In this document: piece after piece, positions 7,431-44,179 of the stretch
How positions within the stretch are numbered: position 1 is the stretch's first letter
Layout of the letters: each line of letters begins with the position of its first letter
Notes under the pieces: model-generated
Databases searched by the model: none
What the model saw: the letters and a program-made list of their open reading frames with translations, nothing else
What the model was told of the DNA's origin: nothing
From: Gammaproteobacteria bacterium
GTDB lineage: Bacteria > Pseudomonadota > Gammaproteobacteria > Thiohalomonadales > Thiohalomonadaceae
Assembly: GCA_003252455.1 (NCBI GenBank)
Contig: QKED01000069.1
Span: 1 to 47,847, forward strand
Direction: 5' to 3'
Length of the DNA stretch: 47,847 nt
Made by a program: the position numbers and the translations under genes

Positions 7431-7870
7431 CCGTTTCTGCGCTCCGCGATGCTCCGCCTGGGCGTGTCGACCAGATGCACAGAGGCAGTCGACTATGGTC
7501 ATCGCTACTCAGCACGGCCTCGCGTTCGAGCCTGAACGCATCCCTTCCGGCGTGTAACGAGTGTGGGCCTGGGTGGGTGGTGAGCGTGCTTTTCGAAATC
7601 TGTCGGGGGCCTATGGCAGACCACGCCTGATGCCATCAAGCGACCGCCTCTGCTGGCACTGACAGAGGCCAACTGGCCGCCAACATCTCAGTGGGCGGGA
7701 TTTGCGCGATTGCCTTGAGTAGAGAACCTATCCGTTCCGTTATCCATAGGATGGAATATACCGCTAGAGGTGTACTTTCTTGGTGCACGTTTTCGGGGGC
7801 CTAAAGAGGTACAGGTCGAGATCTGTACTCCGAGGAGGGGCGGCTAAACACCACCCATGCCTTCTCCTGG
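7431..7870. other. Intergenic stretch, no gene recognised
   Basis: About 440 bases separate the tRNA-Phe terminator from the end of the SEFIR-STAND gene. Open frames crossing it have no recognisable protein content. A small hairpin (GTACAG at 7809-7814 with CTGTAC at 7823-7828) lies about 50 bases beyond the stop of the minus-strand gene; it lacks a clear T run. I see no second copy of the tRNA 3' end here. Confidence 0.6.
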
Positions 7871-36201: not shown

Positions 36202-37473
<1,272 letters not shown>

Positions 37474-39705: not shown

Positions 39706-39856
39706 CCACGCAGACACAGAGGGCACGGAGGAGCATCGCGCAATGTGCACAGCGCATAACCACTATCGAGACATAACCACTATCGAAAAGAGATGGGTGA
39801 GATGATCTCTGCCCATCTCAGAAATGGTTACTCTCTGTGTCCTCCGTGCCTCCGTG
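39706..39856. repeat. Palindromic repeat element upstream of lysS stop
   Basis: The left arm, 39706-39732, contains GACACAGAGGGCACGGAGGA. Its inverted partner is CTCTGTGTCCTCCGTGCCTC with a TCCGTG tail, at 39833-39856. Inside are a 15-base direct repeat CATAACCACTATCGA (39755-39769, 39772-39786) and a hairpin around GAGATGGG/CCCATCTC. Together it fills most of the 327-base gap between the integrase remnant and lysS. Confidence 0.75.
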
Positions 39857-39977: not shown

Positions 39978-41483
<1,506 letters not shown>

Positions 41484-41530: not shown

Positions 41531-41930
41531 TTGGAATACACGCCCTGGAGTACACGGCCTGGAGTACACGGCTTGCCGTGTCATTTAACCCTGGATACGC
41601 ACACGCCGAGACGTGTACTCCAAGGCGTGTTCGTCATCCAATAGCGGGAAACCGCCCTGGAGTACACGGCTCACCGTGTCACTTACCCTGGAGGCACACA
41701 CGCCAAGGCGTGTACTCCAAGGCGTGTTCGTCATCCAATAGCGGGAAACCGCCCTGGAGTACACGGCTCGCCGTGTCACTTACCCTGGATACGCACACGC
41801 CGAGGCGTGTACTCCAAGGCGTGTTCGTCATCCAATAGCGGGAAACCGCCCTGGAGTACACGGCTCACCGTGTCACTTACCCTGGATACGCACACGCCGA
41901 GGCGTGTACTCCAAGGTGTGTGCTCCAGGC
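41531..41930. repeat. 97-bp tandem palindromic repeat array, prfB-lysS
   Basis: About four copies with a period of 97 bases start at about 41558, 41655, 41752 and 41849; the first carries one extra base and the last is cut short. An extra partial start is seen at 41541. Each unit opens with CTGGAGTACACGGC, pairs ACACGG with CCGTGT, contains a second hairpin ACACGCC...GGCGTGT, and ends in GTGTACTCC, so the unit outer ends are also complementary (GGAGTACAC / GTGTACTCC). A non-palindromic spacer of about 35 bases (CGTCATCCAATAGCGGGAAA) follows. Copies differ at only a few bases. Because 97 is not a multiple of three, the frames that run through it are not genes. Confidence 0.93.
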
Positions 41931-43120: not shown

Positions 43121-43192
43121 CCACGCAGGCACAGAGGACACGGAGAGGAATGTTACGTAGTGACTAGCCCTGCTCCACTCCGCGCCTCGGTA
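43121..43192. repeat. Degraded palindromic repeat between prfB and zeta
   Basis: The left arm, 43121-43148, contains CACAGAGGACACGGAGAGG and matches the arm at 39706. A diverged inverted partner (CTCCGCGCCTCGGT) lies at about 43177-43190. Confidence 0.55.
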
Positions 43193-43204
43193 GCAACAGC
43201 GTGT

Positions 43205-43790
43205 TCAACCCGCACCCCATGGGTAGAGGTTGGAGAGCCATTCCGGCATCGGCTCGACCAGTAGACGCCCCCTCCCCTCGACCACCTCGGCCACGGCGCG
43301 GTAGGGGTGCTCCAGGCTGGAGTTGTCGTAGAGGCGTGCGCGCTGGGCCAGGGGCAGTGCTGCCTTGAGGTTCGTAAGGGTGCGCGGGATGCGCTCGATG
43401 ATCTTCTGTGGCGGTACGCTGTGGCCCCCCCTCGCTCACCCGCTGCGCCACGCGCGCCTGGTTGAGCATGGCGCTGTCGAGGTGGATATAGATGAGGATA
43501 AGCGTATAGCCGTGGGCCAGCGCCTCGGCGGCAAAGTCGACCTTCGAGGGGTGGGAGAAGACCGTCTCGAAGCAGAAACTCACCTGCTGGCTGAGCAACT
43601 CCTGACGCGAATGGGTGGCGAGCAGCGCCGCCTGATAGCTGAGCGCCTCGGCGTTGTGCGGGTCGAGACGCTTGGCGATGAGGTCCGCGTTGACGAAGGG
43701 GAGCCCCTTGGAGGCGAGAAAGCGCTGGTAGAAGGTGGACATCCCCGCGCCGTTACCGCCGGTGAGCAGCCAGAGCTGGGGCCGACTCAT
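43205..43790 (-). pseudogene. Zeta-like toxin kinase, frameshifted and P-loop altered
   Basis: The first part from 43790 reads MSRPQLWLLTGGNGAGMST, which is a zeta-toxin/AAA_33 P-loop whose invariant Lys is replaced by Met17 (codon at 43742-43740). HSRQELLSQQVSFCFETVFS follows as in zeta proteins. In a run of seven G (C at 43425-43431 on the plus strand) the frame breaks. Removing one G restores a family-like end (SVPPQKIIERIPRTLTNLKA, LAQRARLYDNSS) that stops at 43205. Either the gene is dead, or it has a one-base sequencing error plus a substitution. It overlaps the ParD-like gene by four bases. If translated as is, the frame ends at 43164. Confidence 0.82.
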
Positions 43791-44179
43791 GCCTCGGGGT
43801 GAAACTGGCCATCGACAAAGCGACCTGGGGTGCGGCACCCGTCCGGGTCGAGGCGATCGATAAGGCCGGGGTGGCTCTGGCTGGCGGCATAGCGCGGGCC
43901 GCTGCCGCCGATGAGGGCGTCGCCGTCGTGCACCGCGCGCGTCTCCACCTTGGCGAAAAGGTCGTCCACATCGATGGACGGGACGCGCACCGGCTCCACC
44001 TGGAGCCGTGCCGCCCCCTGCATCAGCGCCAGCAGTTCACGACTACCCACCTGCGCGGCGACCTGACGGCCCAGCTCGGCCCAGAACTCGATCTGCTTGG
44101 GGGCGGTGCGTTTGAGCAAGGCCCCCTCTGCTTCGGCGGCGTGGACCAGCTCATCGTTGAGGCGTAGGGCGATACTCAT
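43787..44179 (-). CDS. ParD-like antitoxin
   Basis: The protein has 130 residues. The first half, SIALRLNDELVHAAEAEGALLKRTAPKQIEFWAELGRQVA, has the form of the ParD-like antitoxin family (ribbon-helix-helix type at the N-terminus). The second half is longer than in classical ParD and ends with VDGQFHPEA. It lies upstream of, and overlaps, the zeta-like remnant, giving the antitoxin-toxin order of a two-gene module. The frame is intact. Confidence 0.75.
   Translation of the reverse strand: MSIALRLNDELVHAAEAEGALLKRTAPKQIEFWAELGRQVAAQVGSRELLALMQGAARLQVEPVRVPSIDVDDLFAKVETRAVHDGDALIGGSGPRYAASQSHPGLIDRLDPDGCRTPGRFVDGQFHPEA

Follow-up and report, generated by a model that had tools for sequence, protein, structure and literature searches.

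REPs, in the broad definition of PMC12306157, are extragenic short palindromes that form a stem-loop and share a motif present in many copies per genome. In Pseudomonas fluorescens SBW25, inverted REP doublets (REPINs) fold as one hairpin and are repeated in tandem together with flanking sequence; the largest cluster consists of four REPINs and one REP, and clusters adjoin genes of RAYTs, the REP-associated Y1 transposases of the HuH type (Bertels and Rainey 2011, PMC3116915). The BIMEs of Stenotrophomonas and E. coli are regularly spaced, alternating REPs in repeated modules, formed from dimorphic REP pairs with the head GT(A/G)G and associated with RAYT genes (Nunvar et al. 2010, PMC2817692). 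The GTAG- and CGTC-tagged REP superfamilies (Di Nocera et al. 2013, PMC3733652) are short palindromes with an unpaired 5' tetranucleotide. They occur as dimers and in tandem groups, for the most part where the neighbouring genes are co-directional or convergent, and near the upstream gene's 3' end. The TnpA-REP and Y1 subclasses of transposases possess a HuH motif and an NPxKxG motif past the catalytic tyrosine, and have REPs beside their genes (Quentin et al. 2018, PMC6006769). Described heads read GTAG or GTGG, a superfamily that lacks a dedicated transposase has CGTC (PMC2817692, PMC3733652, PMC6006769), and atypical elements accompany the subclass 2.6 and class 3 transposases, those of class 3 being CnGA (PMC6006769, PMC2817692, PMC3733652).

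The window, that is the whole stretch of 47,847 nt that was analysed, carries prfB and lysS on the minus strand with a tandem palindromic array in the gap between them. Its relevant features are as follows.

7811 to 7832, minus strand: single degenerate REP of the array's family, 3 mismatches
39978 to 41483, minus strand: lysS, lysine--tRNA ligase, from its translation; ATG at 41483-41481
41532 to 41929, no strand: tandem REPIN/BIME array, 97-bp unit in about 3.7 copies, from TRF and from direct and inverted repeats
41532 to 41572, plus strand: 14-bp half-REP (half-hairpin) in 2.9 copies at the lysS-side edge, from TRF
41560 to 41581, plus strand: REP 1, plus-strand type, with GGAG head and stem ACACGGC/GCCGTGT
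41601 to 41622, minus strand: REP 1, minus-strand type, with one stem mismatch
41623 to 41657, no strand: 35-nt linker, copy 1, equal to copies 2 and 3 and containing the small palindrome GCGGGAAACCGC
41658 to 41679, plus strand: REP 2, plus-strand type
41698 to 41719, minus strand: REP 2, minus-strand type
41720 to 41754, no strand: 35-nt linker, copy 2
41755 to 41776, plus strand: REP 3, plus-strand type
41795 to 41816, minus strand: REP 3, minus-strand type
41817 to 41851, no strand: 35-nt linker, copy 3
41852 to 41873, plus strand: REP 4, plus-strand type
41892 to 41913, minus strand: REP 4, minus-strand type, the first full REP, 18 nt past the prfB stop codon
41932 to 43030, minus strand: prfB (RF2), stop at 41934-41932, C-terminus ...IEASLKSGL-stop as in relatives
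near 42958-42952, minus strand: CTTTGAC site of prfB resembling a programmed frameshift site, recognised by reading rather than by a family search

The initial annotation had described about four nearly identical 97-bp palindromic units, with complementary outer ends and a constant 35-base spacer, between the prfB stop and the lysS start, and this description was borne out. TRF placed the array at 41558-41921 with a period of 97, 3.7 copies, 94% matches and no indels, and the direct-repeat search gave three register copies of 140 nt at 97-bp spacing, the others being 93% and 96% identical to the reference. The 35-nt spacer was identical to the letter in all three inter-unit intervals; a CRISPR reading was rejected because the intervals between the repeats are identical. 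The repeat search also found 19 inverted pairs. When TGGAGTACACG was searched with at most one mismatch, 10 of the 11 matches in the window fell in the array (0.66 expected in the window, and none of 100 shuffles reached 11). The transcribed strand of the array folded as RNA at -230.6 kcal/mol compared to -157.9 ± 5.75 kcal/mol for shuffles (z -12.6). On the prfB side the array ends at 41921 (TRF) or at 41929 (outer inverted arm), i.e. 2-10 nt from the prfB stop, the arm that pairs over the whole array beginning 2 nt past it, and on the other side the array ends 48 nt ahead of lysS. Open reading frames overlap the array.

Each unit consists of two 22-nt hairpins in opposite orientation with their GGAG heads pointing outward. 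The plus-strand hairpin reads GGAG-TACACGGC-T[CT]-[AG]CCGTGT and the minus-strand hairpin GGAG-TACACGCC-T[CT]-GGCGTGTG, and each doublet also folds into one long hairpin (-28.6 to -36.7 kcal/mol). The REPs follow each other in the order +-+-+-+- at 97-bp spacing with identical 35-nt linkers. The inverted hairpin doublet has the layout of a REPIN, and the alternation of REPs across constant linkers that of a BIME. The array is thus like the SBW25 clusters (PMC3116915) both in its inverted doublets folding as one hairpin and in being repeated together with flanking sequence, since the tandem unit includes its linker, which also supports the earlier proposal of a local expansion. The head and stem sequences differ from those of SBW25, and the present array lies at an operon junction away from its RAYT. 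With the Stenotrophomonas and E. coli BIMEs (PMC2817692) it shares the regular spacing of alternating REPs, the repeated modules, the dimorphic pairs and the association with RAYT genes. We consider the array to be a tandem REPIN/BIME cluster of a RAYT-associated family with a probability of about 0.88, a figure that concerns its identity and not its effect on the transcript.

The initial annotation had also offered REP-like DNA as one possible nature of the repeats, and a search of the genome for further copies upheld it. With at most three mismatches the hairpin pattern matched 103 places of the genome (4.58 Mb), some of them next to a RAYT gene, compared to one place for the reversed pattern. 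With at most two mismatches there were 90 places in the array's own genome and four stray matches in three of the 19 other genomes of the taxonomic family, where two control matches were found among the 19; the repeat family is thus nearly confined to its own genome among the 20 searched. As no relative carries it, stray matches aside, its movement is not seen directly. A 346-nt query taken from the array found no second full copy in its own genome, and matched 28 other places over 22-141 nt once the array and its own reverse strand were excluded, some of them still inside the array. A search with the 10-mer TTGGAGTACA, followed by 13 free bases and a non-T base, avoids selecting on the stem; it found 55 places in the genome compared to one for the reversed control, and 52 of these run into the hairpin, 49 with perfect pairing over 7 bp, while the remaining three look like chance. 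Stem covariation was assessed at the four free stem positions in each of 22 distinct 16-mers: 74 of the 88 free positions pair, compared to 41.2 ± 3.9 when the arms were shuffled, a value reached in none of 10,000 shuffles. The stem variants include CGCC/GGCG, GGCC/GGCC, GGGC/GCCC, GACC/GGTC, GAGC/GCTC, GCGC/GCGC and GCCC/GGGC. Stems that vary and yet pair indicate that the hairpin is kept rather than its letters.

The initial annotation took repeats at random sites across the genome, unconnected to transcription, as evidence against its reading, and this applies in half. The repeats are indeed found genome-wide, but their positions are not random relative to genes. Clusters were tallied in the window and in 25 stretches around REP matches (28 stretches were fetched), with genes called by our own simple codon-usage caller, which missed the C82 RAYT itself, and with one pattern match (C48:82690) left uncounted as a REP. 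Among the 36 clusters, 31 were intergenic: 22 between co-directional genes, six between convergent and three between divergent ones; one was intragenic and four lay at contig edges. A stop codon lies no more than 15 nt from the beginning of 12 of the 28 clusters whose neighbouring genes are co-directional or convergent, compared to 4.06 ± 1.65 for random placement within the same gaps (0 of 20,000). In this preference, as in its short palindromes with an unpaired 5' tetranucleotide, its dimers and its tandem groups, the family is like the superfamilies of PMC3733652.

The genome encodes four Y1 transposases, all of which score over the NCBIfam cut-off for REP-associated tyrosine transposases. 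The RAYT gene on contig C82 (3526-4116) scored 100.1 bits with NF047646 (cut-off 80) and 38.5 with PF01797 (cut-off 23), and the closest solved structure of its product is E. coli TnpA-REP (4er8, E 2.4e-12). Copies of the repeat flank it on both sides, two upstream (3347, 3483) and four downstream (4136, 4159, 4258, 4293), as would be anticipated for a cognate gene. The stems of most of these copies are ACAGGGC or ACAGAGC, with one ACACGCC, and the array's own plus-strand stem (ACACGGC/GCCGTGT) was not seen among them, so the link between the array and this RAYT rests on head, length and loop. The last residues of the RAYT, LEYRARPVR, are encoded by a degenerate REP with a TAGAG head (C82:4085-4106, L031:1991-2012), which is contained in the 3' end of the reading frame.

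A second RAYT, on contig C69, has on either side arrays of another REP family, GGAGC[TC][TA]CAAGCCAACGGCTTG (L033, L171), which occurs at 112 places in the genome with at most two mismatches (control 0). No repeated hairpin with a GTAG, GTGG or GGAG head was found near the remaining two RAYTs (C66 and C102). The C82 and C69 RAYTs are sisters (support 100/97) whose proteins are 45% identical, and the stem sequences of their REPs are unrelated. The place of the pair among RAYTs is unsure, as the pair, C66 and C102 all form long branches. Like the transposases of PMC6006769, they have the HuH motif, NPxKxG past the catalytic tyrosine and REPs beside the gene; here, however, the HuH motif is D[DE]HYH, and W[CR]NYWDY.PR is the segment that reads the head, unlike the motifs tabulated in that paper, for example DHLH and WE in subclass 2.2 and DH[LF]H and WQ in subclass 2.5.

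The outward-pointing GGAG head sets the family apart from the described ones, as it is neither the GT(A/G)G of the Stenotrophomonas and E. coli BIMEs and of the GTAG superfamily (PMC2817692, PMC3733652) nor the CGTC of the other superfamily (PMC3733652). In the text of PMC2817692, PMC3733652, PMC6006769, PMC8266576 and PMC3116915 no word begins with GGAG, although a GGAG in a figure or written with preceding letters would escape notice, and a wider literature search brought up no paper that names GGAG together with REPs and RAYTs; the variant is apparently undescribed and its novelty provisional. Among the GTAG, GTGG and GGAG heads searched, all the repeated hairpins beside the C82 and C69 RAYTs (5 and 12, respectively) were GGAG. 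The head-reading segment is WCNYWDYCPR in the former protein and WRNYWDYSPR in the latter; in E. coli, W94, Q95, E100, H101 and R104 are in the GTAG-reading region (PMC6006769, PMC8266576). For comparison, 37 other RAYT loci were read, a subset of the matched places (29 from a class search and 8 from a phylum search). Repeated flanking hairpins were present at 13 of them, all 13 GTAG with the same three heads searched, and the segment, readable in 30, was WQ..[FY]W[ED]H in every case. Single unrepeated GGAG-headed hairpins were also seen at L179 and L181, loci of the GTAG type or with no head, so a lone hairpin of this kind is no proof.

A profile model built from the C82/C69 pair matched 78 of 369 class genomes at 1e-15 and 7 of 398 phylum genomes at 1e-19, the own genome included in both counts and the phylum set overlapping the class set. 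No match besides the own two exceeded 90 bits in the class and phylum genomes (own pair 387). In plasmids, 3 and 13 records matched, with at most 33% identity among the matches listed, and viral contigs gave no relative. In this small search of 369 class and 398 phylum genomes, plasmids and viral contigs the GGAG branch was thus not found elsewhere. On balance we lean slightly towards a separate branch of RAYT-REP systems: GGAG may have replaced GT(A/G)G as the guide tetranucleotide, and the segment with which the transposase reads the head may have changed to match. The two cases are related and come from a single genome, so they suggest a co-variation of head and reader but do not demonstrate it.

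We propose that a REPIN of the GGAG-headed family landed directly behind the prfB stop codon and would then have expanded about fourfold in place together with its 35-nt linker. The family belongs to the C82 RAYT, which probably moved the REPIN, and the expansion could have occurred by slippage, unequal recombination or RAYT-made copies. Between 41400 and 42050 neither a sigma-70-like promoter nor any intrinsic-terminator-like site (stem plus T-run) was found, and both were rejected as explanations of the array. The 448-nt linker between prfB and lysS is therefore probably transcribed, and transcription of lysS probably passes through the array, unless an unrecognised promoter serves the gene.

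REPs have been reported to act as attenuators and as barriers to decay and, within 15 nt of a stop codon, to reduce translation (PMC12306157). The hairpins of the array could likewise form a non-specific 3' barrier that would protect the prfB mRNA and lower read-through into lysS. Of the possible effects on the prfB/lysS transcript we tentatively consider this one the most likely, and the absence of a measurable effect is about as likely. A cluster of the same identity would in the latter case be a neutral passenger with no effect on the expression of prfB or lysS, a reading to which we give a little less than an even chance. The near confinement of the family to this genome agrees with it, as do such clusters at many other places of the genome, which point to tolerance rather than need. 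However, transcription and decay are unlikely to pass over 398 nt of GC-rich hairpins between two essential genes without a trace, and REPs elsewhere do have the effects mentioned above.

It is very unlikely, by contrast, that selection at this locus has made the array a cis-regulator dedicated to lysS or prfB (an attenuator, a riboswitch-like leader or an RNA-processing site). The very strong RNA fold, the site at an operon junction with its short distances from the prfB stop, and other palindromes in the same gap of some relatives would be in keeping with such a role. Against it, the hairpins are a genome-wide family, no terminator-like site is present, and no Rfam family matched at gathering score, the eight matches with E up to 1 all being microRNA models below gathering; a known regulatory RNA was rejected on this ground. 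The gap in relatives also speaks against a regulator. It was compared at 98 loci (18 from the taxonomic family and 80 from genome contigs) and was resolved in 72 of these (17 and 55, respectively), the 26 without a resolved gap being dropped. The median gap was 34.5 nt, which leaves no room for a conserved element of the array's size; three gaps exceeded 448 nt, and the enterobacterial ones were about 8-22 nt.

Palindrome-rich gaps, picked by eye, were unrelated to the array's family. They were seen in five of the 17 resolved family members (L118, L119, L126, L127 and L131), where the fold z ranged from -3.2 to -6.2, and also in L043 and L097, where it was -8.6 and -5.9, respectively; the z values come from 60 mononucleotide shuffles. 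Long ungapped inverted arms were confirmed in L126 (29 nt) and in L097 (21 nt, GTAG-headed, L097:2413-2482). No ungapped inverted pair of at least 18 nt was found in the L119, L131 and L043 regions, so the palindromes there rest on fold z and reading. The gap of L043, a gammaproteobacterial record like L097, by reading contains GTAG-containing palindromes too. Judged from the gap sequences, the array is not a conserved prfB-lysS device or lysS regulator, most relatives having a short gap, and different repeats have probably invaded the gap on several occasions.

That the array is an assembly artefact, i.e. a collapsed or falsely expanded repeat, is hardly credible. The assembly does have 118 contigs, and two contig ends carry a further array of the family. 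Single-base differences between the units, however, speak against a simple duplication by the assembler, and prfB and lysS enclose the array on a single contig of 47.8 kb. The unit count, rather than the presence of the array, may be wrong. Contigs C104 (1-242, L165) and C111 (156013-156304, L167) share REP-array units, the best piece being 146 nt and 97% identical, which suggests that the assembly breaks at REP arrays and that unit numbers may be under-counted.

Other features were observed in the neighbourhood. Two genes on the minus strand between recJ and prfB encode a ParD-like antitoxin (43787-44179; PF11903, 28.1 bits, cut-off 23) and a zeta-toxin-like protein (43164-43838; PF06414, 29.4 bits, cut-off 22.3). 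The P-loop of the latter by reading has Met in place of the usual Lys, and its PF06414 match ends at residue 144 of 224; the gene may be decayed. A second dispersed repeat, resembling GGCACAGAGGACACGGAG, occurs at 43128-43145, 39713-39730, 39833-39850 and 37365-37382, these being the four matches in the window with at most three mismatches (0.07 expected). Similar words are present on contigs C101 and C102, and by eye they resemble palindromes in the prfB-lysS gaps of some relatives.

The array is best taken as the footprint of a mobile element, an identity that cautions against seeing a lysS regulator in it. Judging by the unrelated palindromes in the prfB-lysS gap of other gammaproteobacteria, such elements may be tolerated at this gene end or attracted to it. 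If the proposed change of head and reader is true, the GGAG branch would be a natural experiment on how RAYTs read their guide. The two GGAG families with their sister RAYTs in one genome offer a test of whether the tetranucleotide and the protein segment change in step, a question relevant to target choice and cleavage by domesticated Y1 transposases.
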